The position numbers were made by a program, and so were the translations under genes. From Halobacteriovorax sp. (lineage in GTDB: Bacteria > Bdellovibrionota > Bacteriovoracia > Bacteriovoracales > Bacteriovoracaceae), in contig JAIFLR010000066.1 in the NCBI GenBank assembly GCA_020048985.1, forward strand, positions 1 to 33,006: a stretch of 33,006 bases of DNA. The letters run 5' to 3'. Within the stretch, counting starts at the first letter, position 1. Each line of letters opens with the position of its first letter. The notes under the pieces were generated by a model. That model ran no database searches and was not told where the DNA came from. It saw nothing but the letters and a program-made list of their open reading frames with translations. Of the stretch, positions 13,645 through 31,347 are shown in pieces.

Positions 13645-14184
13645 ATGAAAAGTCTAAAATCGTATAAATACTTATTGTTTACAATCCTCACTCTCCCGGC
13701 CTGGGCCCAAAATTGGGACCAGGGATTTGAAGTACTGGAACCGAGAGAGAATATCTATCAGCTTGAAGCGGATACCTTTCAGAAGAGAATCAATGAAGGC
13801 AGAAAGATCGCGCTCTTTTATCCCGTCACCGTCAGTGAATTATTAATCCCCTATCAACCGTTAAAAACATTTTTTGAAAGTGATCCAAACGACCCAGTTC
13901 GAAAAGTGCTTTATGACTTGGCCCGGGTTGTTTCTCCCTTCAAATCCATGGGAGATGTTTTTAATTGGCTGGGAGTTCATGAATTTCCCGCCACCGCCCG
14001 ACCATCATTCATACCGAAAATGGAGAGGCACTCACTTTCGGATGTGCCGCTTGTCACTCCTCTGATCTTTTTGGTGTTAAAGTTCTGGGACTCACTAACA
14101 GATTTCCTCGAGCGAATGAATTTTTTAGACAAGGTCAGACCTTCGCTCCTTATATCAACTCCTTTCTGTTTAAAAATCTTTTGA
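13645..14184 (+). pseudogene. N-terminal part of a frameshifted RoxA-like cytochrome gene
   Basis: The reading frame begins with a signal peptide (LLFTILTLPAWAQ, cleavage near residue 21), as expected for a periplasmic c-type cytochrome. It stays convincing to about GVHEFPATARP (near 14005). Beyond that the frame gives unremarkable sequence, whereas the frame one base behind encodes ENGEALTFGCAACHSSDLF with a heme-binding CAACH at 14043-14057 and runs unbroken into the large downstream frame. That frame is closed by TGA at 13980-13982, so the switch must lie between 13983 and about 14040. A single missing base near gcccgacc would restore a protein of about 538 residues spanning 13645-15260. 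Confidence 0.75.
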
Positions 14185-15260
14185 AAACAACAGAAGGTGA
14201 AAGATTAATGATGGCAAATGCCAAGCACGCGATGAAATGGATCGGGGCCAAGGAGCCCACCACTCTTGGTCTAGATACCAGTCTGGCCCAGGTTGCACTT
14301 TCTCTTTCAAAGAGAGAAAAAGATGATTACGCCACTCGCACCGATCGATCGGCCAGATCCCCACGCCCGAGTAAACTTTCAACCATGGTGAGTGACTCTA
14401 AACCGGCCGTGTGGTGGAACGTAAAATATAAAAATCGCTGGCTCTCTGATGGATCCATTGTTTCAGGAAATCCTGTTCATACAAATTTTCTTTGGAACGA
14501 AATTGGACGCGGGACGGATCTGAGAAAACTAGAGACCTGGATGAAGGACAGCAATCATCAAATCGAGGCACTCACAGCAGCGGTGTTTGCCACTAAACCA
14601 CCACGCTACGAAAAATTCTTTGGGGTTGAGGCGATAGATATCGAGAAGGCCCGCCGCGGACAAAAACATTTTGTCCAATCTTGCCAAAAGTGTCACGGGA
14701 CCTATGAAAAGGGTTGGGATCAGGCAGAGGCCAATAAATTATCTACTGCGAAGTTGCTGCAAAACTTCAAAGTCACTTATCACAAAAAAACTCCCGTCAT
14801 TGACGTGGGCACTGATCCAGGCAGGTACCTGGGCATGAAAGAATTTTCGGACGACTTGAACCGACTTCAGATTTCAAAAAATTTGAACGCTGTAGTCGAG
14901 CCTCAGAAAGGCTATGTGCCACCTCCCTTGGAAGGAATCTGGTCACGCTGGCCCTACTTTCACAACAACTCTGTACCTAACCTCTGCGCGCTCCTGACAG
15001 TTGCTTCTGCTCGTCCTAAAACCTACGTGGCCGGAAAAGCGATTGATAAAAAAAGAGATTTTGACCAGGAATGTGTAGGGTATCCAATTGGTGATAAAGC
15101 ACCTGAGGAATGGAAATCAAACAAGGCCTACTTTTATGATACCCAAAGAGAAGGTCTCTCTAATTCTGGTCACGATGAAAAGATTCTTGTGAGAGAGGGA
15201 AAAGAGATTTATTCACAGACTCAAAAATCCGAGCTCATAGAGTTCCTTAAAACTCTTTAG
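14181..15260 (+). CDS. C-terminal part of a RoxA-like di-heme cytochrome c
   Basis: This 359-residue part carries the second heme motif, CQKCH (14682-14696), and the block PPPLEGIWSRWPYFHNNSVP followed by LCALLT and RPKTYVAG. That arrangement (PPL-G-W-PY-HN-SVP-L, RPKTF) is typical of the di-heme cytochrome c peroxidase superfamily, in particular the RoxA/RoxB-like oxygenase branch. The protein should act in the periplasm; whether it cleaves a polymer, reduces peroxide or carries electrons cannot be told from sequence. The nominal start is a TTG at 14181 without a ribosome site. The frame is open from 13983 and includes the first heme site CAACH, so this is one gene with the fragment at 13645. 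It is convergent with the GNAT/C39 gene seven bases away. Confidence 0.8.
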   Translation: MKTTEGERLMMANAKHAMKWIGAKEPTTLGLDTSLAQVALSLSKREKDDYATRTDRSARSPRPSKLSTMVSDSKPAVWWNVKYKNRWLSDGSIVSGNPVHTNFLWNEIGRGTDLRKLETWMKDSNHQIEALTAAVFATKPPRYEKFFGVEAIDIEKARRGQKHFVQSCQKCHGTYEKGWDQAEANKLSTAKLLQNFKVTYHKKTPVIDVGTDPGRYLGMKEFSDDLNRLQISKNLNAVVEPQKGYVPPPLEGIWSRWPYFHNNSVPNLCALLTVASARPKTYVAGKAIDKKRDFDQECVGYPIGDKAPEEWKSNKAYFYDTQREGLSNSGHDEKILVREGKEIYSQTQKSELIEFLKTL

Positions 15261-15267
15261 GCAAAGA

Positions 15268-16401
15268 CTACTCTCCGTAGACCACAACAGTAGCGGACAC
15301 TTTGGCCTTGCCCCAACGTGAAATTTTAAGGAATTGATCTTCTGGTATAGGGATGTGCACTCGGCTGATCACGCCCTCATGTTCAAAATCCTGATCAGGG
15401 TCGTGAATGAAAACAAAACCATCATCATAGGCCGTAACAACGACCCAGTGAGGAACGTGGTTTTGGTCAAAGTGATAGGTCGTGATCAAGACAATGGGAA
15501 CTCCGCCTTTTTTCAAAATCGCCTCTAAATCTTCCAGAGTTAGGCGTTTCTTGTGCATCTTAATATTGGTCATTTCAATTTTTTTGACAAAATCTTTATG
15601 AACTAGATCAATGATTTTTTTCTTCTCCAGACTTCTGACGGAACTCAGAAACATGGGAGAAGTTTGCGAAAGATAAACTTCGGTTCTATAGCCGCGCCTC
15701 CAGGCAGATAGAGCTATGCCGTGAGGACCACATCCTCCGTGCCCAGAAGTCATAAAAATTGTGGTGGCCTCGCGCCAGATCTGCAATTCATTTGATAGAG
15801 ACATATCGCAATTAGCATTAAAAGTTCTCATGGCCATCATGAGACAGGCAGCTCCACAGGTAAAGTCTGTGCCCTGCTGGTGATAAGGAATATTTAAGCG
15901 TGGTGGCTTTTTAAGAGTTCGTATTCTTTTTTCAAAGCAGAAGGCGGTGGTGCCATCATCATAATAATTTTCTTTTTGAGTGAACTTAACGTAACCCAGT
16001 TTTTTGTAGAGGCCAATCGCCCCCTTATTATCGGCCTTCACCTCTAAGCGAAGGTAGGCACAATCCTCTTCATCCGCAGTTCGGTCTTCCAGGTCATTCA
16101 TAAGTTTAGTCGCCAATCCAAAGCCCTGAAACTCTTTCAAGGTACAAATGGAATAGAGCCTGGCCAAACTCGTTCCCCTATTGACCAAGACCAAACCGTA
16201 CCCGACCAAATGAGTCTTACACTCAAGCACCAGGAAGATTGAGCGGGCGTGTTTGATCATCCAATGAAAGCTGCGCCTACTCATCTGATCATAGCTAAAA
16301 CAAGCGTTTTCAAGCAGAACCAGTTGTCCCAAGTCGGCCAATTTAGCTTTTCGAATTTTTACTTTAGAAGGGTCAATGCCCCCCTTGAAGATGCGTTCCA
16401 T
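15268..16401 (-). CDS. GNAT acetyltransferase fused to a C39-like cysteine peptidase
   Basis: Of 377 residues, about 13-155 form a GNAT domain with the acetyl-CoA loop in EFQGFGLATKLM and the late NKGAIGLYKKLGY motif. About 170-377 form a papain-fold, peptidase C39-like domain with C182 in TDFTCGAAC, H318 in VPHWVVVTAYDD and a third residue near D335 in FIHDPD. There is no signal peptide, so both should act in the cytosol. The GNAT would N-acylate an amine and the C39 domain would cut a peptide or isopeptide bond; substrates are unknown. I chose ATG 16399-16401. The frame continues 20 codons upstream, but those would run across the palindrome and the neighbour's start. It is divergent from the ATP-grasp gene with only 40 bases between starts. 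Confidence 0.88.
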   Translation of the reverse strand: MERIFKGGIDPSKVKIRKAKLADLGQLVLLENACFSYDQMSRRSFHWMIKHARSIFLVLECKTHLVGYGLVLVNRGTSLARLYSICTLKEFQGFGLATKLMNDLEDRTADEEDCAYLRLEVKADNKGAIGLYKKLGYVKFTQKENYYDDGTTAFCFEKRIRTLKKPPRLNIPYHQQGTDFTCGAACLMMAMRTFNANCDMSLSNELQIWREATTIFMTSGHGGCGPHGIALSAWRRGYRTEVYLSQTSPMFLSSVRSLEKKKIIDLVHKDFVKKIEMTNIKMHKKRLTLEDLEAILKKGGVPIVLITTYHFDQNHVPHWVVVTAYDDGFVFIHDPDQDFEHEGVISRVHIPIPEDQFLKISRWGKAKVSATVVVYGE

Positions 16402-16408
16402 TCTGATA

Positions 16409-16425
16409 TTGTACTTAAAGTACAA
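16409..16425. promoter_or_regulatory. Perfect 17-bp palindrome between divergent starts, candidate operator
   Basis: TTGTACTTAAAGTACAA has 8-bp perfect arms around one central A (16417). It sits almost exactly midway in the 40-base gap between the GNAT/C39 start (16401) and the ATP-grasp start (16442). A dimeric regulator here could control both directions. Confidence 0.6.
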
Positions 16426-16441
16426 ACAACTTGGAAGGCAC

Positions 16442-17935
16442 GTGGCCAAAATTATTGTCATCGTCGAGAAACTAAAAGACTGGAACTCTTATTTCCCCGT
16501 AGAACAGCTTATGACTCCTCAGGACTACCTGGTGAATTGGGATGAAAGTCTCCACTCCCCCAAGCACGCCGATGGAAGAATCAAAATTATCAACCTCTGT
16601 CGAAACTATAAGTACCAAAGTAACGGTTACTACTGCTCACTTTTGGCCGAGGCCCGTGGTCATTCGGTCATTCCTTCGATCAAGGCGATCAATGACTTGA
16701 GTAAATCTTTTTTTTATTCACTGCAAACTGAGGATTTGGACTTAGATCTTCAAAAAGCCTTTAAAGGGCAAAGCACAACTGAATCTTTCACCATCTCGAT
16801 CTATTTTGGAAAAACTGAAAAAGAACAGCTGCAAGATGTGGCGAGACAGATTTTTGATCTCTTCGCTGCCCCCATTCTTCACGTTGATTTTGAGTGGGAC
16901 AAGAAATGGGAAATTAAAAGTATTCGTGCGGGAAGTTTAAATGCACTGACTCCGGCCGATGAAGATAAGTTTGCGACCTCTCTCGATGAGTACTCAAATA
17001 AGATCTGGCGCAAGCCCAAGGCCAAGAAAAAATTCCGCTACGACCTGGCGATACTCCATAATCCGAATGAGGCTATGCCTCCTTCAGACAAGAAGGCCCT
17101 GGCAAACTTTATCAAGGCCGGAAAAGAGTGCGATGTACTGGTTGAATTAATTGAGAAAAAAGATTATTCCAGAATTGCAGAATTTGACGCTCTCTTTATC
17201 CGCGAAACGACTGCCATTAATCACCACACTTACCGTTTTGCTAAGAAAGCTGAATCTGAGGGTTTAATAGTCATTGATGATCCTATTTCGATTTTGAGAT
17301 GCACCAATAAGATCTACATGCATAATCTTCTTCAATCAAATAACATCAACACACCAAAGACTCTCGTTATCAGCAATAGTCCAGAGCAACTCAAAGAAGC
17401 CGTGGAAGAAATTGGATTCCCAATGATCATCAAAATCCCTGATGGCTCATTCTCTAAGGGTATTTATAAAGTTAAGACTCTGGAAGAGATGAAAAAGATC
17501 ACAGAGGATCTGTTCAAAAAAACTGCACTTCTTCTTGCTCAAGAATATTTTTACACCGATTTTGATTGGCGCATAGGCATCTTAAATGATCGCCCCATTT
17601 ACGCCTGCAAATACTATATGACTAAAGGTCACTGGCAAATTTACAACCACGAAAATAAGGACAAGGTGACGAAGGGAATTCAGTCAGGCGATGCAGAGAC
17701 CTTCCCCATTTCTAAAGTCCCTAAGCACGTAATATCCACCGCCCTAAAAATGGCCAGCCAGATCGGGAACAGTCTTTACGGAGTCGATCTGAAGGAAAGA
17801 GATAAAAAGGCTTACATTATCGAGATCAACGATAATCCGAATATTGATGTAGATGTTGAGGACGCTATTGCAGGCATGGATCTCTACCACAATATTATTA
17901 ATGAATTTGTTCGAAGGATTGAGGCGAACAAATGA
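16442..17935 (+). CDS. RLAN/RimK-type ATP-grasp amidoligase
   Basis: This protein should join a carboxylate to an amine using ATP through an acyl-phosphate. The 497 residues comprise an N-terminal RLAN-like region (about 1-230, including INLCRNYKYQSNGYYCSLLA and ARGHSVIPSIKAINDL) and a C-terminal ATP-grasp domain (about 270-497). The latter shows the Lys and glycine-rich loop IIKIPDGSFSKGIY, then QEYFYTDFDWRIGIL, and the metal-binding IIEINDNPN. I chose GTG 16442, which begins AKIIVIVEKLKDW and has GGAAGG close by; an ATG-initiated 519-residue version would run back into the divergent gene. It overlaps the aspartoacylase-like gene by ATGA, so the two are translated together. RimK relatives make glutamyl peptides, and mammalian RIMKL enzymes make N-acetylaspartylglutamate; the substrate here is unknown. 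Confidence 0.88.
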   Translation: MAKIIVIVEKLKDWNSYFPVEQLMTPQDYLVNWDESLHSPKHADGRIKIINLCRNYKYQSNGYYCSLLAEARGHSVIPSIKAINDLSKSFFYSLQTEDLDLDLQKAFKGQSTTESFTISIYFGKTEKEQLQDVARQIFDLFAAPILHVDFEWDKKWEIKSIRAGSLNALTPADEDKFATSLDEYSNKIWRKPKAKKKFRYDLAILHNPNEAMPPSDKKALANFIKAGKECDVLVELIEKKDYSRIAEFDALFIRETTAINHHTYRFAKKAESEGLIVIDDPISILRCTNKIYMHNLLQSNNINTPKTLVISNSPEQLKEAVEEIGFPMIIKIPDGSFSKGIYKVKTLEEMKKITEDLFKKTALLLAQEYFYTDFDWRIGILNDRPIYACKYYMTKGHWQIYNHENKDKVTKGIQSGDAETFPISKVPKHVISTALKMASQIGNSLYGVDLKERDKKAYIIEINDNPNIDVDVEDAIAGMDLYHNIINEFVRRIEANK

Positions 17936-18774
17936 GTAAACCATCTCGAGTTGTTATCGTTGGGGGGACTCACGGTAATGAATGGACTGGAATTCAGATT
18001 GTTCAGCACTATCAAGATGAGCTAAGAAACAAGTTTCCTAGTTTAAAGTTGGAATTTATTTTTGCTAACCCCGAGGCCCATAAACTGAATTCACGTTTCA
18101 AAGACGAGGATCTTAATCGTGCCTTTGAACACCTTCAGGTGTCGCGCCAGTCCTATGAGCATGCCAGGGCCCACGAAATAAAAAAGATTATTGACCGCGA
18201 ACCATGCCTCGTACTCGACCTCCACACCACCACCGCCTCCATGGGAAATACCATCATTGTTTCCCACTATAATCCTCTCAACCTTTCGTTATGTTCGAAA
18301 TTATCCCAGGAATTTAAGGACTGTCGTGTTATTGGGGCCCCGGACCCTAAATTAAAATACCTTGCCAGTCAGTCTGGGTTTGGCCTGATCCTGGAAGTAG
18401 GTCCGGTGGCAAATAGCGTTGTTGAAGCTGTGGCATTAGAGTCGACCCTGAGCTTAATGGCCTCCATCCTTAGCGCCATGAGCGCCTCGTCGGACGAGCC
18501 ACTTCATGGCAGCGTTGAGCTCTTTGAGGAGACGCAAGATGTGCCCTATCCCAAGAATGATAAAGGTGAATTAAATGGCTATATTCATTCCGGTTTTCAA
18601 GGCAAAAATTTCCAGGTTATAGAAGGAAAATTTGTCCCCTTTAGAACCTTCCAAAATCAAAATATTGAGATGAAAACGGAAGAAAAGTTGTTTCCCATTT
18701 TCATTAATGAAGCCGCTTATTATGCACAAAATCTCGCTTTTACACTGTGCCGAAAGAAAACAATTACATTCTAG
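17932..18774 (+). CDS. Aspartoacylase-like zinc amidohydrolase
   Basis: This 280-residue protein belongs to the AstE/aspartoacylase (M14-like) family, which hydrolyses N-acyl amino acids. The zinc ligands H14 and E17 lie in GGTHGNEWTG and H98 in DLHTTTASMGNT. The substrate-binding N62/R63 lie in DLNRAF and the catalytic E155 in LILEVGPV. DLHTTT-MG and EVGP are closer to aspartoacylase than to succinylglutamate desuccinylase. It starts inside the stop of the ATP-grasp gene (ATGA), the arrangement expected for enzymes on the same metabolite. It is cytosolic by lack of a signal. About 110 bases of apparently gene-free DNA follow before the lipoprotein promoter, without a clear terminator. Confidence 0.88.
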   Translation: MSKPSRVVIVGGTHGNEWTGIQIVQHYQDELRNKFPSLKLEFIFANPEAHKLNSRFKDEDLNRAFEHLQVSRQSYEHARAHEIKKIIDREPCLVLDLHTTTASMGNTIIVSHYNPLNLSLCSKLSQEFKDCRVIGAPDPKLKYLASQSGFGLILEVGPVANSVVEAVALESTLSLMASILSAMSASSDEPLHGSVELFEETQDVPYPKNDKGELNGYIHSGFQGKNFQVIEGKFVPFRTFQNQNIEMKTEEKLFPIFINEAAYYAQNLAFTLCRKKTITF

Positions 18775-22878: not shown

Positions 22879-25800
22879 ATGAAATTTGGCCAATACCCCT
22901 CTGATTTAATAAATGACGAACATGTTAACAGTGAAGTTCTGAGCATTGAGCGCCTTGAACTAGTTGCTATAGAACTCGCCCAGCGACTTAAAACTCATGC
23001 GAAACCGAGTAAAGGAATAAATCTTTTACCCCAGATGAAAAACTCATCTGAAAAACTGCTTGAAGCCTATCTTATACTGACTCAAGAAATGTCTAACCAA
23101 AACTTAACACCTGCTTCGGAGTGGTTTTTAGATAATTTTCACATCGTTGAAGATCAGCTAAGAAGCATTAAAAGAGACTTACCAAAAAACTTTTATGATG
23201 AGCTTCCAAAGATTTATGAGGGTGAGTTTGATGGGTATCCAAGAGTCTACGCAATTGCTAGCATTTTCGTCTTGAATACTGATGCCAGACTCGACCTTGA
23301 ATCAATTAAGAAATTTGTTCGTGCCTTTCAAAAAAAGACTCCGCTAACAATCGGTGAATTATGGGCAACCGCCATAACTTTTAGAATCTCACTTATTAAA
23401 CGACTGCAACCATTAGTTGAAGGAATCATTTCATCACAACGAAAAAGGGAAGAAGCAGATAATCTGGCAGATGAAATTTTAAAGATGGCGGCCAAGGCTG
23501 ATACCAAACCTGAAGAACTTATTCTTTATCTGGCAAAAAGCTTGGGAGTGAAAGAAAAATACAAACGCCCCCTTATTGTTCAACTCATACAAAGATTACG
23601 AGACCAAGACCCGAGTATTTCAGGGACTTTCGATTGGCTTGAGAAGACATTGCAAGAGTGTCAAACAAGCTCGAGTGAGTTAATCCAAAACGAGCATTAC
23701 CGTCAGGCCGCAACCCAGGTCACAATTGGCAACATCATCTCAAGCATGAGGCTGATTTCAAAAATTGACTGGCACGATTTCTTTGAAGACGTTAGCTTCA
23801 TCGATCCCATATTATCTCAGGATCCTCCAGGCATTTATGACCTCATGGATAGGGCAACAAGAGATTCCTACCGAAAGGTGATTGAGAGAATTTCCAAAAG
23901 GACTCTTTTTTCAGAAACGCAAGTCGGTCTAAGGGCCGTTGAGTTAGCAAAAAATTTCAAATCGGATGTGGTCGCTGACAAACGCAAAAATCACGTTGGT
24001 TACTACCTTGTAGATCAAGGTGTCCTTGAGCTTGAAAATTCTCTTCAGTATAAATCTCCTTATAAAGAAAAAATCGTCCGATTCATTGATGATGACCCCA
24101 CATTTATTTATTTTGGGACGCTCTTCATTCTCATGGTCTATTTTATTTCAACAATTTTAGTTTTATTTGATGCCCCCTACCAATCACCACTAAGAACATG
24201 GTCGATAATTTTTCTTGTTGTGATTCCTGTAAGTGATCTTTCATTAAGCATTCTTAACTTTGCTATCAGCCTTCTTAGAGTCCCAAAGAAGTTGCCACGA
24301 ATGGAGACAGAAAAAGGTATAGACCCAAAAGAAAGCACAATGGTTGTGGTGCCCTGCCTGCTCTTAAGTCACTCAATTATCCATGAACTAATTAGCAACC
24401 TAGAAGTTCAATATCTGGCCAATCAAGACCCAAATATCTATTTCGCCATTCTCGGAGACCTCGGTGATGCTTCTGCTGAAATAACCGATCGAGATCAGGA
24501 TTTGTTAACTCAAGCCTTTGAGGGCATTGAGGAATTAAATCGAAGGTATATTGGAGGTACAAGGCCGAAATTCTATCTTTTTCACCGTGCCCGACTCTAC
24601 AATCCTTCGGAAGGGAAATGGATCTGCTGGGAGAGAAAAAGAGGCAAAATAGTAGAGTTCAATCGGCTCTTGAGAGGCGATCAATCAACAACCTACGTAA
24701 ATCAGGATCTAGACCATGACTTTTTAAATAGTATCGTCAACGTCATTACTCTTGATGCAGATACGCAATTGCCCCTCCAGAACGCCCGGCGCTTAATCGG
24801 AACGATCTCTCATCCACTTAACGCCCCCGTATATTCAAAAAAAGAGAACCGTATAATTGCTGGATATGGAATACTTCAACCTCGCATAAGCGTATCCATC
24901 GTATCTGCATCGAAAACTCGTTTCTCTAGAATTTTTTCAGGTAATACGGGTATAGATCCCTACACAACAGCAGTTTCGGATGTGTATCAGGATTTATTCA
25001 ACGAAGGGAGCTTTACGGGAAAAGGACTTTATGTTGTCGATGCCTTTGAGCAGGTTATGGGAGATCGAGTTCCAGAAAACTGTGTCCTCAGTCACGATCT
25101 TTTGGAAGGAAGTTATGCACGAGTTGGGCTGACTACAGATATTGAACTTATTGACGACTATCCATCCAACTTTGAAATCTACGCCAAAAGGATGCACCGC
25201 TGGACCAGAGGTGACTGGCAAATTTCACTTTGGCTCCTGCCCTTCGTTCCCAACAACAAAAATAAATGGGTTAGAAATAATCTCCCATTGATTGCTCGTT
25301 GGAAAATATTTGATAATCTACGCCGAAGCCTTCTGAGTCCATCAATTCTTTTATGGTTGGTTTTAAGTTGGACTGTCCTCGTTGGAAATCCATTTGCCTG
25401 GACAATAACAGTTCTTGTTGTGATGGGCTTTCCTGTATACGCCCCTTCAATAGGTGATATCCTAAAAAAGCATGACTGCAGCTGGAGAGAACACCTAAAA
25501 ACGTGTTTGACAGCGGCGAAAAATCGAATAAGACAAGTAATTCTGATGTTAATCTTCATGCCATCAATGGCAGTTGATCAAGTTGACGCCATCACACGAT
25601 CCCTCTATAGAATGATCATATCCAAAAAGAAACTTTTGGAATGGGTTACTTTCTCGCAGACTCAAACACTTGGAACATCGGAATTTGGATGGAAAGAAAT
25701 ACTATCAAATGGGCCAATGTTATCCGCCTTGAGTGCCATCTTTATTCTCATATTTCGACCAGAGAGTTTGCCCGTTGCCTCCCCCTTCCTCCTGGCATGG

Positions 25801-28800
25801 TCCTTATTGCCGCTAGCTTCAAGATGGACCAAAGACAAGGCCAAAGCTCAAATTAGTCCACTCAATAAGGATGAGATTAAACTCTACCGCCGTTATGCCA
25901 GGCTAACCTGGCACTTCTTTGAAACCTTCGCCAGGGCCGAGAACAATTGGCTGGCCCCCGACAACTTTCAAGAAGACCCAAAACCGATCATTGCCCACCG
26001 GACTTCTCCCACAAATATTGGTCTGCATTTGCTGGCAATCCTCTCCGCCTATGACCTAGGCCATATTGGTTTTAGAGAAATGGTTGCACTCCTTGAGGAA
26101 ACACTCGCAACAGTTAAGAAGCTTGAACGAATGAACGGGCACTTTTTTAACTGGTATAACACTATAACTTTAACTCCCCTGCACCCTCGATATATTTCTT
26201 CCGTCGATAGTGGAAACCTTGCTGGACACCTGATGGTAGTCAAACAAGCTTGTTTGAAACTGAGTGAGGGGCCCTATATCAATCCTCATACTCAAGCAGG
26301 TATGCGTGATGGCTTAGATATTTTAACAACTGCAATACAGAAAAATCGTCTACAAGGGGTGACTCCCATTGAAGATGAGGTGCTAAGTAAAACACTCAAA
26401 CTTATAGCGACTGTTAACTTAAATCTTGAGAAATGTGACTGTAGAAAAATAACTGGGGATCTTCAGGCAGCAAAAGAGTTACTCGTAACTCTCTCCCTAC
26501 CAACCAATTCCGAAGTTATGAGTTGGATGAACAGTGTCTTATTTCAGGCATCTTCATTTCAGCATGATGAGCTAGAAAACCACACTGATCTGCCAGGGAG
26601 ACTAAATTCAATCGCCACACAATGCCAGGAAATCTATCTTGCGATGGATTTTCGCTTTCTGTTCGATGAAGAACGAAAGATATTTGCCATTGGTTATAAT
26701 GTAACAGATGGACGCAGAGATGATTCCTATTACGACCTTCTCGCATCAGAATCAAGATTAACAAGTTTTTTTGCCATTGCAAAAGGTGATGTCCCTGATG
26801 AACATTGGTTTCGACTAGGAAGACAACTCACTAACGTCGTAAATAGTCGGGCACTCATTTCTTGGAGTGCAACGATGTTTGAATACTTGATGCCCCTTTT
26901 AGTCATGAGACGGTATGAATCAACACTCCTAGATCAAACCTATGAATCAGTTGTACAGAGGCAGATTGAATATGGAAAACAGCGTAACATCCCTTGGGGC
27001 ATATCCGAGGCAGGCTATAATGCCAGGGATTTAAATTTCAATTACCAATATGGTCCTTTTGGAATTCCAGGACTAGGGCTTAAGCGTGGACTCAGAGATG
27101 AGCTCGTTATTTCACCCTATTCAACTATGTTGGCGGCGATGATATCACCCCAGGAGTCACTCGAGAACCTTGTCACCTTAGAGAAAATGGACGTCTTAGG
27201 AAGTTATGGGTTTTATGAATCTATCGATTATACAACTGAGCGACTACCCAAAGATAAAAAATCCATCATCCTCAAATCATACATGGCCCACCATCAGGGA
27301 ATGAGTTTAATTTCCATTAATAATCTTTTAAATAAATCAATTATGCAGCGTAGGTTTCACGAGGAGCCTAGGGTTAAAGCAGTACAACTTCTGCTTCAGG
27401 AGCGCATCCCTGCAGTGGCCCAAATAAGTAAGCCAAGAGCAGAAGAAACCCATATTGAGAGTTTTGCAAAATTCAGCGAAAGCTTCATCACTAGAATTTA
27501 CACTGACCCATCACTGTCGACGCCTAGAACTCAAATCCTCTCGAATGGAAATTATTCAGTCATGATGTCAACGTCCGGCTCTGGCTTCTCTAAATGTGAG
27601 GAGCGCCTTGTATCCCGCTGGAAAGAAGATCCAACCCAGGATAACTGGGGTCAATATATTTACATTCAAAACGTAGACACACAAAAAACCTGGTCAGCAG
27701 GCTATCAGCCGATGGTTGGAAAAATCACAAAATATGAAACCCATTTCTCCGAGAACAAAATAGAAATCCTCCGTGAAGACAGCAACATTTCAACTCACAC
27801 AGAAGTCATTGTTTCGACTGAAGATAACGTAGAAATGAGAAGATTAAGTCTTACAAATAATACTGACAAGACCATAGAATTAGAAATTACGAGCTACATG
27901 GAAGTGGTCTTAAGTAGAGCGAACGACGATAGTGCTCATCCTTCATTTAGCAACCTATTTGTTCAAACTGAGTACCTACCTGAAACACAATCCCTCCTTG
28001 CACACAGACGATTGAGGTCAAAACATGAAACTGAAGTTTGGGGTCTTCATCTTCTAACATTAGAGGGCGAAGGAGTTGGATCAATCCAGTATGAGACAGA
28101 TCGAAGCAAATTCATAGGTCGAGGAAGAAATGTTAGTAATCCTTTGGTCATGACAAATGAGATAGATCTTTCAGGCACAGTCGGGGCAGTACTTGATCCT
28201 ATATTTTCTTTAAGGCAGCGGATTAAAATCCAACCACAACAGACTTCAAGGTTAACATTTGCAACGGGGCTTGTTTATTCAAGAACAGAAGCATTGAGGG
28301 TTATTGAGAAATATCACGACCCCCATATCTTTCTAAGGCAGTTAAATCTTGGGTGGGTTAAAAATCAAATCGAACTTCGTCATTTAAATATCACCATGGA
28401 AAGCGCCCACCTCTATCAACGGCTTGCTGGTAGAATTCTTTATCTTGCCCCATATCTCAGAGCGCAGTCTGAAATTTTAATGTTGAATAAAAAAAATCAA
28501 TCCGCACTTTGGGCCTATGGAATCAGTGGAGACCTGCCCATCCTTCTCACAAGAATTCAAGATGAGAAGGATATGGAAATGATCAGGCAACTCTTGCGAG
28601 GGCATGAATATTTGAGATTAAAGGGTCTAAAAATTGATCTCGTTATTTTAAATGAGCATCCAACTAGTTACATGCAACACCTGCAGGAAGAACTGATGAG
28701 ACAGATTCTCATCAGTGGATTTCACTCACTCCTGGATAAGCCAGGGGGAATATTCATCAGAAAATCGGACCTGATTCCAGCTGAGGATCTGATTCTCATA

Positions 28801-31347
28801 AAATCTGTTGCTCGTGTCAGCTTATACGCCAATAAGGGCACACTATCTGATCAGCTGAGAAGAAGACCTCATGATCAGGAACTACCGGCACGATTTCGTC
28901 CTGTTGCACAAAAAAGAGATTTCGCACGGACACATTATCCACGAGTGGATTTAAAGTTTTTTAATAGTATTGGTGGTTTTACTCAAGAAGGCGATGAATA
29001 CGTAATAACGCTAAAACCTGACCAATGGACACCTGCTCCTTGGATAAATGTGATTGCCAATAAAAAAGATTTTGGATTCATTGTTTCCGAATCTGGCCTA
29101 GGTTATACCTGGTCAGTTAACAGCCGTGAGAATCGTCTTTCTTCGTGGTCAAATGATCCAGTTTCGGACCCTACATCAGAGGCCATCTATGTGCGTGATG
29201 AAGAGAGCGGAGCTTTCTGGACTCCAACAGCACTACCAATGAGAGACTCAGGGGAATACCTCGTCAAACATGGACATGGGTATTCTGAGTTTCATCATGA
29301 AGCTTATGGTATCTCAAACAAAATGACAGTTTTCACACCGACTGAGGATTCAGTTAAAATCATTTCGCTCAAGATCAAAAACAATAGTCAAAGACCTAGA
29401 AAACTATCCATAACAAGTTATGTAGATTGGGTACTCGGTTTCTCAAGGGCACAGTCTCCACAAACATTAATAACCAAATGGGATTTAGAATCTCAATCCA
29501 TTTTGGCCTCCAACACTTACAATAATGAGTTTTCCGAACGAGTCGCCTTTATTAGCAATAGTGGAGATAACGTTACCTTCACAGCTGACAGGAAAGAATT
29601 CATAGGCCGCAATGGCTCACTGGTCAAACCCGCTGCACTTTCAAGAAAACATTTGAGCTCAAAAACCGGTGGCGGTTTTGATTTATGTGGTGCTGTTCAA
29701 TCCAGCGTGAACCTAAAGGATGGGGAAGAAAAAGAAATCATCATTCTTTTGGGACAAGGGTCCAATGCGGAAGAGGCAAAACATTTATCAACATTTTATA
29801 AAGATTCAAAAAATGTAGAAAATGCATTGATCGCCGTAAAGGAGTATTGGAAGGAAACTTTCAACACTATAAGAATTAAGACTCCAGATGCCTCTATGGA
29901 TATGATCGTCAACAAATGGCTTCCCTACCAAACCCTGGCCTGCAGGATCTGGGCCCGCTCAGCTTTTTATCAATCAGGTGGTGCTTTTGGCTTCAGGGAT
30001 CAGCTTCAAGACGTCATGGCAATGGTTTACTCCCACCCCGAAATTACGAGGGAGCAAATCAAGCTTGCAGCTTCAAGACAGTTCAAAGAAGGCGATGTTC
30101 AGCATTGGTGGCATCCCCCAACGGGTCGAGGCGTGCGTACAAGATTTTCAGACGATTTACTCTGGCTCCCCTTCGTCGTGAATTACTACGTTGAAGTAAC
30201 TGGAGATACCTCAATTCTAGACGAAGTTGTACCCTTAATAGAAACCCCTCAGTTAACAGAAGGTCATGACGAAACTTATACCCAACCAGAAACCTCTAAG
30301 GAGACTGCAACGGTATTTGAACACTGCTGTCGAGCGCTGGATAGAAGTCTGAAAGTAGGAAACAACGGCCTTCCACTCATGGGATCGGGTGACTGGAATG
30401 ATGGAATGAACCGAGTCGGGAATTTAGGTTTGGGCGAAAGTGTTTGGCTCGGATGGTTTCTGCTCAAAACACTTAGAGGATTTGTCCCTTTGTGCGATAT
30501 CAAAAATGACATTGAACACTCAGAAAAATATATCGTACATATCGTGAAATTAAAAAACGCCATTGAAAGCAACGCCTGGGATGGACAGTGGTATCTTCGT
30601 GCCTATTTTGATAACGGTGACAAAATGGGATCACACTTAAGCGAAGAATGCAAAATCGATGCTATTGCTCAGTCTTGGTCTATTCTCTCTGGAGAAGGAA
30701 ATCCGGGCAGAGGAAGAATGGCCCTTGAAGCCGTGAATAAATATCTTATCAATCGTGAAGACAAAATCATTAAACTTTTCACACCACCATTTGATAAGAG
30801 TCCAGCGGATCCCGGCTATATCAAAGGATATGTCCCAGGAGTTAGAGAAAACGGAGGGCAGTATACACATGCTGCAATCTGGACAATGATGGCCTATGCG
30901 GCCATCAAAGATGGAGAGACAGCTCATGAACTATTCTCTTTAATTAATCCAATCAATCGTTCTACCTCTTTGACAGGTGTTCAAAAGTATAAAGTTGAGC
31001 CCTACGTAATATCAGCAGACATCTATGGCGTGAACCCACATGTGGGCAGAGGTGGTTGGAGCTGGTACACAGGATCAGCGAGTTGGATGTATCGAAGTGC
31101 TATCGAATCAATTCTAGGCTTTAAGCTGCGAAACAATATATTAATGATTGAACCATGTATCCCTAAAGGATGGGATCAATTTGAAATTAGCTATATCAAA
31201 GGAAAATCAAAATATAATATCAGGGTCTTAAATAATCAAAACCTTAGTTCTGTAGAATTAGATGGGGTTCTCATCGAAAGCAAGGAGATCCCAATTAAAG
31301 ATGATGGGAAAGAACATCAAGTGACAGTTAAACTTCAGTTAACTTGA
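22879..31347 (+). CDS. Cyclic beta-1,2-glucan synthase (NdvB/ChvB/Cgs family)
   Basis: This inner-membrane enzyme polymerises UDP-glucose into beta-1,2-glucan, cyclises it and trims chain length. At 2822 residues it matches ChvB and Cgs. The order is: an N-terminal region (to about 400, including YPRVYAIASIFV); membrane segments (about 409-432 and 440-466); the GT84 transferase with DADTQLP near 625 and RMHRWTRGDW near 773; more membrane segments (about 821-855, 886-900 and 944-980); the glycoamylase-like cyclisation domain with WGISEAGYNARD near 1373 and YGPFGIPGLGLKRG; two GH94 N-terminal-type sandwich regions; and the GH94 phosphorylase with GSGDWNDGMNRVG near 2503. All expected catalytic motifs are present and the frame is unbroken. 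No NdvA-type ABC exporter is in the window. The ATG has a modest TAGG site. The stop overlaps the convergent recQ stop by nine bases. Confidence 0.95.
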   Translation: MKFGQYPSDLINDEHVNSEVLSIERLELVAIELAQRLKTHAKPSKGINLLPQMKNSSEKLLEAYLILTQEMSNQNLTPASEWFLDNFHIVEDQLRSIKRDLPKNFYDELPKIYEGEFDGYPRVYAIASIFVLNTDARLDLESIKKFVRAFQKKTPLTIGELWATAITFRISLIKRLQPLVEGIISSQRKREEADNLADEILKMAAKADTKPEELILYLAKSLGVKEKYKRPLIVQLIQRLRDQDPSISGTFDWLEKTLQECQTSSSELIQNEHYRQAATQVTIGNIISSMRLISKIDWHDFFEDVSFIDPILSQDPPGIYDLMDRATRDSYRKVIERISKRTLFSETQVGLRAVELAKNFKSDVVADKRKNHVGYYLVDQGVLELENSLQYKSPYKEKIVRFIDDDPTFIYFGTLFILMVYFISTILVLFDAPYQSPLRTWSIIFLVVIPVSDLSLSILNFAISLLRVPKKLPRMETEKGIDPKESTMVVVPCLLLSHSIIHELISNLEVQYLANQDPNIYFAILGDLGDASAEITDRDQDLLTQAFEGIEELNRRYIGGTRPKFYLFHRARLYNPSEGKWICWERKRGKIVEFNRLLRGDQSTTYVNQDLDHDFLNSIVNVITLDADTQLPLQNARRLIGTISHPLNAPVYSKKENRIIAGYGILQPRISVSIVSASKTRFSRIFSGNTGIDPYTTAVSDVYQDLFNEGSFTGKGLYVVDAFEQVMGDRVPENCVLSHDLLEGSYARVGLTTDIELIDDYPSNFEIYAKRMHRWTRGDWQISLWLLPFVPNNKNKWVRNNLPLIARWKIFDNLRRSLLSPSILLWLVLSWTVLVGNPFAWTITVLVVMGFPVYAPSIGDILKKHDCSWREHLKTCLTAAKNRIRQVILMLIFMPSMAVDQVDAITRSLYRMIISKKKLLEWVTFSQTQTLGTSEFGWKEILSNGPMLSALSAIFILIFRPESLPVASPFLLAWSLLPLASRWTKDKAKAQISPLNKDEIKLYRRYARLTWHFFETFARAENNWLAPDNFQEDPKPIIAHRTSPTNIGLHLLAILSAYDLGHIGFREMVALLEETLATVKKLERMNGHFFNWYNTITLTPLHPRYISSVDSGNLAGHLMVVKQACLKLSEGPYINPHTQAGMRDGLDILTTAIQKNRLQGVTPIEDEVLSKTLKLIATVNLNLEKCDCRKITGDLQAAKELLVTLSLPTNSEVMSWMNSVLFQASSFQHDELENHTDLPGRLNSIATQCQEIYLAMDFRFLFDEERKIFAIGYNVTDGRRDDSYYDLLASESRLTSFFAIAKGDVPDEHWFRLGRQLTNVVNSRALISWSATMFEYLMPLLVMRRYESTLLDQTYESVVQRQIEYGKQRNIPWGISEAGYNARDLNFNYQYGPFGIPGLGLKRGLRDELVISPYSTMLAAMISPQESLENLVTLEKMDVLGSYGFYESIDYTTERLPKDKKSIILKSYMAHHQGMSLISINNLLNKSIMQRRFHEEPRVKAVQLLLQERIPAVAQISKPRAEETHIESFAKFSESFITRIYTDPSLSTPRTQILSNGNYSVMMSTSGSGFSKCEERLVSRWKEDPTQDNWGQYIYIQNVDTQKTWSAGYQPMVGKITKYETHFSENKIEILREDSNISTHTEVIVSTEDNVEMRRLSLTNNTDKTIELEITSYMEVVLSRANDDSAHPSFSNLFVQTEYLPETQSLLAHRRLRSKHETEVWGLHLLTLEGEGVGSIQYETDRSKFIGRGRNVSNPLVMTNEIDLSGTVGAVLDPIFSLRQRIKIQPQQTSRLTFATGLVYSRTEALRVIEKYHDPHIFLRQLNLGWVKNQIELRHLNITMESAHLYQRLAGRILYLAPYLRAQSEILMLNKKNQSALWAYGISGDLPILLTRIQDEKDMEMIRQLLRGHEYLRLKGLKIDLVILNEHPTSYMQHLQEELMRQILISGFHSLLDKPGGIFIRKSDLIPAEDLILIKSVARVSLYANKGTLSDQLRRRPHDQELPARFRPVAQKRDFARTHYPRVDLKFFNSIGGFTQEGDEYVITLKPDQWTPAPWINVIANKKDFGFIVSESGLGYTWSVNSRENRLSSWSNDPVSDPTSEAIYVRDEESGAFWTPTALPMRDSGEYLVKHGHGYSEFHHEAYGISNKMTVFTPTEDSVKIISLKIKNNSQRPRKLSITSYVDWVLGFSRAQSPQTLITKWDLESQSILASNTYNNEFSERVAFISNSGDNVTFTADRKEFIGRNGSLVKPAALSRKHLSSKTGGGFDLCGAVQSSVNLKDGEEKEIIILLGQGSNAEEAKHLSTFYKDSKNVENALIAVKEYWKETFNTIRIKTPDASMDMIVNKWLPYQTLACRIWARSAFYQSGGAFGFRDQLQDVMAMVYSHPEITREQIKLAASRQFKEGDVQHWWHPPTGRGVRTRFSDDLLWLPFVVNYYVEVTGDTSILDEVVPLIETPQLTEGHDETYTQPETSKETATVFEHCCRALDRSLKVGNNGLPLMGSGDWNDGMNRVGNLGLGESVWLGWFLLKTLRGFVPLCDIKNDIEHSEKYIVHIVKLKNAIESNAWDGQWYLRAYFDNGDKMGSHLSEECKIDAIAQSWSILSGEGNPGRGRMALEAVNKYLINREDKIIKLFTPPFDKSPADPGYIKGYVPGVRENGGQYTHAAIWTMMAYAAIKDGETAHELFSLINPINRSTSLTGVQKYKVEPYVISADIYGVNPHVGRGGWSWYTGSASWMYRSAIESILGFKLRNNILMIEPCIPKGWDQFEISYIKGKSKYNIRVLNNQNLSSVELDGVLIESKEIPIKDDGKEHQVTVKLQLT

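Follow-up and report, generated by a model that had tools for sequence, protein, structure and literature searches.

A GNAT-papain fusion, an RLAN-ATP-grasp ligase and an aspartoacylase-family hydrolase in Halobacteriovorax: a possible lineage version of a modular capped-peptide kit

We find that three neighboring ORFs at 15268-18774 of a 33,006-nucleotide stretch of Halobacteriovorax sp. DNA (the whole stretch is the window below) encode a GNAT fused to a papain-like (DUF3335) domain, a divergently read RLAN-ATP-grasp ligase and an aspartoacylase. All three proteins keep their catalytic residues and evolve under purifying selection. The GNAT/RLAN pairing recurs well outside the host genus, the aspartoacylase was added locally in a single Bacteriovoracaceae-like clade, and RLAN ligases form two clades with different partner sets. 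We tentatively propose, with a probability of roughly 0.4, that these genes are one lineage's form of a modular RLAN kit for building and taking apart a small capped peptide. The features are as follows.

15268-16461, minus strand: GNAT-papain fusion, mechanical ORF (ORF list)
15268..16401, minus strand: GNAT-papain-like (DUF3335) fusion, 377 aa, ATG at 16401 (PF00583 and PF11814 over cut-off)
15277..15894, minus strand: papain-like (C39/DUF3335) domain (profile match)
15928..16362, minus strand: GNAT domain, RimI/Ard1-like (profile match)
16402..16441, no strand: divergent gap of ~40 bp between the two inferred starts (sequence and alignments)
16376-17935, plus strand: RLAN-ATP-grasp ligase, mechanical ORF (ORF list)
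16442..17935, plus strand: putative RLAN-ATP-grasp amide ligase, probable GTG start (PF14401 and PF08443)
16559..16978, plus strand: RLAN domain (PF14401, E 3.3e-51)
17303..17899, plus strand: RimK-like ATP-grasp domain (PF08443, residues 310-508 of the 519-aa ORF)
17932..18774, plus strand: aspartoacylase-family zinc hydrolase (NF002601 over cut-off)

The mechanical starts of the ligase and the GNAT fusion are probably too far upstream. In alignments, ligase homology begins at GTG 16442; an ATG for the fusion lies at 16401, and with these starts the two genes are separated by ~40 bp instead of overlapping by 86 bp. The ligase and aspartoacylase ORFs overlap as ATGA. Apart from these small start corrections, the layout in the original prediction (a GNAT fusion, a divergent ligase and an ATGA-coupled aspartoacylase) was borne out. 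The locus had also been called a switchable unit; however, the promoter scan found 6 promoter-like sites against 7.1 ± 2.9 in shuffled sequence, which is no excess, and a regulated divergent promoter was dropped.

Profile searches placed each protein well above family thresholds. The fusion ORF matched the Pfam families DUF3335 (269 bits, cut-off 25) and Acetyltransf_1 (57.8, cut-off 20.7), and the ligase ORF combined RLAN (170.9, cut-off 25) with RimK (51.1, cut-off 21; PF08443, E 1.6e-13). The ligase scored 35.4 bits against the NCBIfam S6-glutamate-ligase equivalog, whose cut-off is 331. By these profiles it is a member of the RLAN-ATP-grasp family and a putative amide ligase. The third protein matched AstE_AspA_cat (87.7, cut-off 25) and AstE_AspA_hybrid (44.8, cut-off 25) in Pfam and the NCBIfam equivalog 'aspartoacylase' NF002601 (234.8, cut-off 180). 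Loss of catalytic residues in homologs had been named in advance as a finding that would speak against the pathway; the presumed catalytic residues were invariant among the aligned homologs. These included Gln176, Cys182, His318 and Asp334 of the fusion protein (26/26 sequences), which leaves the Cys-His-Asp of the papain-like domain (Cys182, His318, Asp334) intact, and Lys290, Lys331, Asp449, Glu461 and Asn463 of the ligase (39/39), which we take to bind ATP and metal. In the hydrolase, His14, Glu17, Arg55, Asn62, Arg63, His98 and Glu155 were invariant in all 23 aligned sequences, with His14, Glu17, His98 and Glu155 presumably serving as zinc ligands and catalytic Glu.

Recurrence in the own-genus genomes and the phylum panel indicates that the three-gene grouping is not due to chance. 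Among 18 own-genus genomes, RLAN was found in 17, DUF3335 in 15 and an over-cut-off aspartoacylase in 14, always directly behind the ligase by coordinates; the same placement was found in two other genera. As for the other four, two are interrupted by contig ends (G275 and G283), one lacked an over-cut-off aspartoacylase (G223), and one had none of RLAN, DUF3335 and aspartoacylase over cut-off (G184). Strong DUF3335 matches (E < 1e-50) occurred in 31 genomes of the 290-genome phylum panel; RLAN was present as well in 30 of these, and in 29 the two genes are neighbors by coordinates. RLAN ligases occurred in 42/290 phylum-panel genomes and in 63/274 genomes of a Competibacter-class panel, suggesting that the metabolite or modification concerned is common. 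The predicted gene association held across genomes for the widely kept GNAT/RLAN core; the aspartoacylase belongs to one clade.

We surveyed 145 RLAN loci (60 gammaproteobacterial, 59 named and 26 Bdellovibrionota), sets that overlap in part (L049 with L107, L061 with L139, L076 with L106) and that include related, non-independent genomes. In clade A the partner is a GNAT that in most cases carries a fused papain-like domain, whereas in clade B the partners are a separate papain-like gene and a GCS2 amide ligase, often with an N-formylglutamate-amidohydrolase-like enzyme (FGase). The papain-like domain of the fusion is homologous to the clade B papain-like gene (hhalign 96%, E 1.5e-9). A GNAT adjoined RLAN, with and without a papain-like domain respectively, in 40+4 of the 60 gammaproteobacterial, 38+13 of the 59 named and 14+1 of the 26 Bdellovibrionota loci; the corresponding counts for GCS2 were 11/60, 3/59 and 9/26. 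FGase was present in 13/13 gammaproteobacterial and named loci with both the papain gene and GCS2. No locus among the 145 combined a match to the fusion-family GNAT profile with GCS2 or with the papain gene of clade B. Partner sets are less exclusive than this profile shows, since a GNAT from a different subfamily follows GCS2 immediately at the clade B locus L105 and another precedes RLAN at L197. Two further loci (L033 and L174) have RLAN and match neither GNAT nor GCS2. The ligase tree of 131 labeled rows required one A/B change. Ligase positions conserved to at least 95% in both clades numbered 62, and 39 were fully shared; four were clade-specific at the 80% level, and conservation was confined to clade B at 24 positions and to clade A at 15.

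In the proposed kit, the RLAN-ATP-grasp ligase would form an amide between the amino group of an amino acid and a free carboxylate on its substrate, which would itself be an amino acid or a short peptide. The GNAT domain would place an acyl group on the amine end, a step for which the GCS2 ligase of clade B would substitute by forming a second amide, and the papain-like domain may cleave or transfer within the product. The zinc hydrolase, here the aspartoacylase, would act on the same product, cutting the amide beside the free-carboxylate amino acid and so reversing one step. The partner counts, the single A/B change, the positions shared by both ligase clades, the ligase fold and the zinc-hydrolase genes near the gammaproteobacterial core speak for this kit; the clade-specific ligase positions, the other GNATs at L105 and L197, the loci L033 and L174 and the clade-A loci lacking a zinc-hydrolase neighbor speak against it. 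A broader version, which we consider doubtful, is that RLAN marks a single ancient make-and-break module with two unrelated amide-forming partners (GNAT or GCS2) and repeatedly recruited zinc amidohydrolases, serving one shared capped-peptide metabolite or tag across Bdellovibrionota, Gamma- and Alphaproteobacteria, Bacteroidota and Verrucomicrobiota. If the capped-peptide reading is right, the partner sets would narrow the chemistry to a product in which one amide adjoins an amino acid with a free carboxylate and another is made from acyl-CoA or by a second amino-acid ligation.

The main rival, conceivable if rather unlikely, is that the substrate is a protein and the modification reversible: the RimK-like ligase would extend a protein carboxylate by at least one amino acid, the zinc hydrolase would trim what was added, and the GNAT-papain protein would cap and process a protein N-terminus. 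The predicted ligase model matched ArgX (3vpc), RimK (5zk6) and LysX (3vpd), and ArgX, RimK and D-Ala ligases are the closest in fold; a protein tag would fit RimK, which acts on ribosomal protein S6, and ArgX and LysX, which act on the carrier protein LysW. It would likewise fit the GNAT domain, whose best Foldseek matches were RimI (5isv) and Ard1 structures, protein N-acetyltransferases. A ligase with an M20 hydrolase also resembles the LysX/LysK pair. On the other hand, no shared carrier or target gene was found among recurrent flanking ORFs of at least 90 aa, and those enzymes related to GCS2, FGase, ArgE and aspartoacylase that have been studied use small molecules. All 50 Foldseek matches listed for the fusion were acetyltransferases, with none to the papain-like domain.

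That the GNAT lies nearest to protein N-terminal acetyltransferases, and the ligase to enzymes some of which use protein carboxylates, runs against a small-peptide kit and favors a protein substrate.

The capped-peptide reading gives the zinc hydrolase a part in the system. In gammaproteobacterial clade A, M14, DUF2817 and ArgE genes occupy the place held by the aspartoacylase in the window, at fewer than half of the loci. The commonest Pfam families among 83 adjacent ORFs there were M20 (9), DUF2817 (4) and M14 (4). These three were absent from the families listed for 110 distal ORFs, a scan that covered 110 of 190 ORFs and listed 25 of 136 families, such that a single distal M14, M20 or DUF2817 match is possible. 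Custom profiles had found 19 zinc-hydrolase genes in 78 kb near the core and 0 in 317 kb far from it; because they were seeded from near genes, the control was repeated with Pfam. None of the five zinc families had a gene beside the core in 25 of 44 gammaproteobacterial clade-A loci. Bdellovibrionota clade A outside the aspartoacylase clade had no such gene scoring at least 20 bits within 900 bp, and among named clade-A loci a zinc-family neighbor occurred only in the aspartoacylase and ArgE groups. The M20 neighbor scored as the arginine-pathway enzyme ArgE in 7/7 tested cases and ArgA lay close by in 4/11 gammaproteobacterial loci, so the ArgE placement may be merely positional; leaving ArgE aside, zinc neighbors remain in 8/44 loci. 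A common fold for all the zinc hydrolases was set aside, as profile comparison gave weak support for DUF2817 alone: the aspartoacylase matched it at 67% (E 5e-5, HGxE- and DLNR-like motifs aligned), against 9.6% for FGase and 0.5% for M14. All these families presumably belong to one Pfam clan.

An unlikely explanation is that the aspartoacylase is a hitchhiker, or an independent salvage enzyme, that happens to be co-transcribed in one Bacteriovoracaceae-like clade and that the system proper is GNAT-C39 plus RLAN. The gene occurs in a single ligase clade of 18 rows, its distribution requires three changes on the ligase tree, and it evolves faster (dN 0.18-0.23 versus 0.04-0.09). The phylum panel has 30 over-cut-off aspartoacylases: 16 immediately follow RLAN, another is 1.6 kb off (G188) and 13 are elsewhere or in RLAN-less genomes. 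Arguing against a mere passenger are the adjacency held in the 14 own-genus genomes and two other genera, and the M14 and DUF2817 genes that adjoin the core elsewhere.

We judge it very improbable that the locus is catabolic, with the ligase priming or recycling prey-protein peptides and the hydrolases degrading N-acylated peptides as food. The close relatives are named as the Bacteriovorax group, which has a predatory lifestyle, and two hydrolytic domains are present, but Azospirillum, Pseudoalteromonas and Competibacter, which are not known as predators, carry the core as well, and an ATP-driven ligase is ill suited to catabolism.

Least probable of all is a bacterial N-acetylaspartate/N-acetylaspartylglutamate circuit as in mammals, which matches in its three enzyme classes (GNAT, RimK-like ligase and aspartoacylase; NAT8L, RIMKLA/B and aspartoacylase in mammals) but is weakened by a patchy aspartoacylase, missing at the majority of RLAN loci, by a GNAT that is RimI/Ard1-like in sequence and fold (best matches RimI/Naa/Ard1), and by an aspartoacylase pocket that differs, with Gln at the position of human Arg168, presumably a substrate-pocket residue, and Ser in aspartoacylase-2/aminoacylase 3. 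Because of this Gln, 'aspartoacylase' for the window enzyme is a family assignment by profile only. The cap, ligate and cleave pathway originally envisaged survives in outline, its domains being real, intact and adjacent; its mammalian parallel, its switchability and the suggested role as an osmolyte or signal find no support in these results.

The capped-peptide kit can be set beside several known systems. The window ligase shares the ATP-grasp family with RimK, the S6 glutamate ligase, and differs in its RLAN domain and neighborhood; it is near ArgX and LysX of the LysW pathway in fold, RLAN again being extra, and in that pathway the amidohydrolase LysK undoes the ligase's bond; no LysW-like gene was noticed next to the core. 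An RLAN/GNAT-papain neighborhood was reportedly predicted in the comparative amidoligase work of Iyer et al. in 2009; like the window, it has an RLAN ligase beside a GNAT-papain fusion. The present analysis found the aspartoacylase member, the split of the ligases into two clades, FGase as a partner and the M14/DUF2817 neighbors. The Pfam text for RLAN names M20 peptidases and GCS2 as neighbors. Literature searches, judged by title and abstract opening, listed no paper recognizable as experimental work on RLAN or DUF3335. PA1345 is probably the RLAN gene of P. aeruginosa PAO1. In the NAGGN (N-acetylglutaminylglutamine amide) osmolyte operon of Pseudomonas aeruginosa, PA3459-PA3461, Ngg alone both N-acetylates glutamine and joins the second glutamine, and a putative aminopeptidase gene is included, according to PMC8070244. 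By contrast, the GNAT and ligase of the window are separate divergent genes, the GNAT carries a papain-like domain in the same protein, and a scan of ten window proteins gave no asparagine-synthase-like/amidotransferase domain, the NAGGN partner. In PMC12802237, PA1345 is one entry of a table of Cpx sites.

Profile and ORF evidence confirmed that the three reading frames carry the domains named in the original prediction, in the following arrangement around the RLAN-ATP-grasp ligase gene.

15268-16461, minus strand: ORF with GNAT and papain-like DUF3335 ('Peptidase_C39 like') domains, by domain profiles
17932-18774: AstE/aspartoacylase-family ORF, its start overlapping the ligase stop as ATGA

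The 17932-18774 protein is an aspartoacylase by NCBIfam equivalog (234.8 against a cut-off of 180). In alignments, homology of the ligase begins at GTG 16442, and an ATG at 16401 is available as the start of the GNAT fusion, so about 40 bp would lie between the two genes.

We asked how widely this neighborhood, whose GNAT-papain/RLAN part was reportedly already predicted in a 2009 paper, is kept. Among 290 Bdellovibrionota genomes, RLAN was over cut-off in 42, DUF3335 was strong in 31 and aspartoacylase was over cut-off in 30. RLAN was also present in 30 of the 31 strong-DUF3335 genomes and stood side by side with DUF3335 in 29 of them, and the pairing recurs in other groups, so the gene association assumed in the original prediction is upheld for GNAT and RLAN. 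Among 59 named loci from other genomes, GNAT adjoins RLAN in records titled Bacteriovoracaceae, Competibacter, Contendobacter, Alteromonas, Pseudoalteromonas, Thalassolituus, Bacteroidales and Alphaproteobacteria; GNAT-C39 also lies just upstream in 8 of 11 plasmid records matching most of the ligase (7 Azospirillum, 1 Tistrella; positions checked in detail in two records). The aspartoacylase is directly behind RLAN in 16 of the 30 genomes, 14 from the window's own genus plus G016 and G201, and in genome G188 it lies 1.6 kb from the GNAT-C39 gene. DUF3335 proteins are described as often fused to GNAT domains (PMC10318531). We conclude that the GNAT/RLAN core is a conserved functional unit.

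Alignments with relatives picked for length and spread showed no loss of the residues that we take to be catalytic: ligase Lys290, Lys331, Asp449, Glu461 and Asn463 are invariant in 39/39 sequences, Gln176, Cys182, His318 and Asp334 of the papain-like domain in 26/26, and His14, Glu17, His98 and Glu155 of the zinc hydrolase (aspartoacylase) in 23/23, as expected if the enzymes proposed originally are active. Between the window and related loci L035 and L036, non-synonymous distances are 0.04-0.23, against differences at 70-82% of the synonymous sites, indicating that all three genes are under purifying selection; the aspartoacylase is the fastest-changing of the three.

For the ligase, the structures nearest to its AlphaFold2 model (pLDDT 83, pTM 0.74) are ArgX, RimK, D-Ala-D-Ala ligases and LysX, matched over ~300 columns with TM below 0.5 by query length and ~0.65-0.85 by target length. 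For the GNAT-papain model (pLDDT 85, pTM 0.58), the nearest of the matches listed are the RimI and Ard1 acetyltransferases, over ~155 columns. Judged by these predicted folds, the ligase and GNAT would act on the ends of peptides or proteins. A RimK-type ligase makes an amide with a free-carboxylate amino acid on the amine side, and the aspartoacylase, M20, M14 and DUF2817 families cut such an amide. Of the readings weighed, the likeliest is that the locus is a kit that both builds and takes apart a capped peptide, with a protein tag as the main rival. The parallel with N-acetylaspartate drawn earlier is weakened by one residue: Arg168 of human aspartoacylase helps bind aspartate, but the position aligned to it holds Gln in the window and Ser in aspartoacylase-2/aminoacylase 3, and one would therefore not expect the window enzyme to act on N-acetylaspartate. 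Among the experimentally studied bacterial systems that we met, the closest parallel is the NAGGN operon, in which a single enzyme N-acetylates glutamine and also joins a second glutamine (PMC8070244).

RLAN ligases were found with two partner sets: GNAT (clade A), or a separate papain-like gene with a GCS2 amide ligase (clade B), frequently joined by an N-formylglutamate-amidohydrolase-like enzyme (FGase). A panel from the class of Competibacter, the Gammaproteobacteria, had RLAN in 63 of 274 genomes, one copy each, and 60 loci were used after excluding G447, G410 and G556 for short or partial reading frames.

Partners of RLAN at 145 loci (sets overlap in part)
60 gammaproteobacterial: GNAT+papain 40; GNAT alone 4; separate papain-like gene+GCS2+FGase 10; GCS2 alone 1; papain-like gene alone 1; none 4 (2 near piece end)
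59 named: GNAT+papain 38; GNAT alone 13; papain-like gene+GCS2+FGase 3; GCS2 alone 0; papain-like gene alone 0; none 5
26 Bdellovibrionota: GNAT+papain 14; GNAT 1; papain+GCS2 6 (4 with FGase); GCS2 alone 3 (1 with FGase); papain gene alone 1; none 1

None of the 145 loci combines GCS2, or clade B's papain gene, with a match to the GNAT profile, which covers only the GNAT family of this system and misses others. Pfam placed a GNAT of another subfamily directly after GCS2 in a clade B locus (L105:10014-10409), where other loci have FGase, and another GNAT before RLAN in locus L197. Profile comparison shows homology between the free-standing papain-like gene and the fused domain (hhalign 96%, E 1.5e-9), with Cys, His and Asp in register. 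In a tree of 137 RLAN ligases, built quickly and with long-branch warnings, one change suffices for the two partner sets, and the 25 rows of clade B group with an SH-aLRT of 100%. Across the 137 rows 39 ligase positions are at least 98.5% conserved. A conservation of 95% or more is reached at 62 positions in both clades, at 24 in B alone and at 15 in A alone, and four positions distinguish the clades at the 80% level, one of them at 85%. From these sequence comparisons we infer that the central reaction is common to both clades and that the second amide is formed by GNAT in one and by GCS2 in the other; the substrate may have shifted between them. Literature searches listed nothing that we recognized as dealing with the two sets of partners or with the neighboring zinc hydrolases.

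On the same tree the aspartoacylase is restricted to one clade of 18 ligases. Another zinc hydrolase lies within 900 bp of the core in 19 of 44 gammaproteobacterial clade A loci (11 M20, 4 M14, 4 DUF2817), a count inflated, like the other neighbor counts, by kinship of the loci. DUF2817 sits between ligase and GNAT in 4/4 loci, and no gene of these three families was found in 317 kb further out on the same pieces. By Pfam, M20 (9), DUF2817 (4) and M14 (4) are the most frequent families in 83 adjacent ORFs, M28 (also 4) being a second match on M20 enzymes in the proteins inspected; all three are absent among the families listed for 110 distal ORFs drawn from 190 (25 of 136 families, covering every one with at least two members). 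Against a general zinc-hydrolase slot, the M20 neighbor scores over cut-off as the arginine enzyme ArgE in 7/7 tested, and ArgA is close by in 4 of 11 gammaproteobacterial loci. With M20 left out, only 8 of the 44 loci have a zinc hydrolase beside the core. Among the named clade A loci such a neighbor is confined to the 14 with aspartoacylase and the 11 with ArgE, and of 15 Bdellovibrionota clade A loci only two have one, both aspartoacylase, with two zinc-hydrolase genes further out in 142 kb. DUF2817 resembles aspartoacylase by profile comparison (67%, E 5e-5); FGase and M14 showed no resemblance to it by this comparison.

Several loci differ in composition. The control genome of Methanosarcina acetivorans had DUF3335 over cut-off and RLAN not, so the papain-like domain also exists apart from the RLAN system. 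Locus L033, from a Pseudomonas aeruginosa record, has RLAN near a glutamate/aspartate transporter and a gamma-glutamyltransferase, with no GNAT, papain-like or GCS2 match within 6 kb of the ligase. Genome G245 alone in the phylum panel has two RLAN matches (contigs C17 and C22; L110, L111), which score equally and lie near contig ends and so may be one gene assembled twice. The Psychromonas ligases (L070, L074) cluster with Bdellovibrionota-panel ligases on the tree, which suggests gene transfer, and L064, titled Phycisphaerales bacterium GAO1, carries an entire Competibacter-type cassette, so its contig may be misbinned. In the Competibacteraceae-type loci L053, L056, L058-L065, L083 and L139, the region downstream of RLAN contains a gene for a high-potential iron-sulphur protein, identified by Pfam from the L059 copy. 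In seven relatives (L038-L043 and L051) the next gene after GNAT-C39, downstream and in the same orientation, is an FHA-domain gene (L038:3407-4576, the copy on which Pfam identified it); its profile has no match in the window. A RoxA-like/di-haem cytochrome c peroxidase-like gene at 13645-15260 is split into two ORFs in different frames, its counterpart in relatives such as L036 and L042 being a single ORF of ~560 aa; the split reflects either misassembly or decay of the gene. One 2822-aa ORF (22879-31347) adjoins the region.
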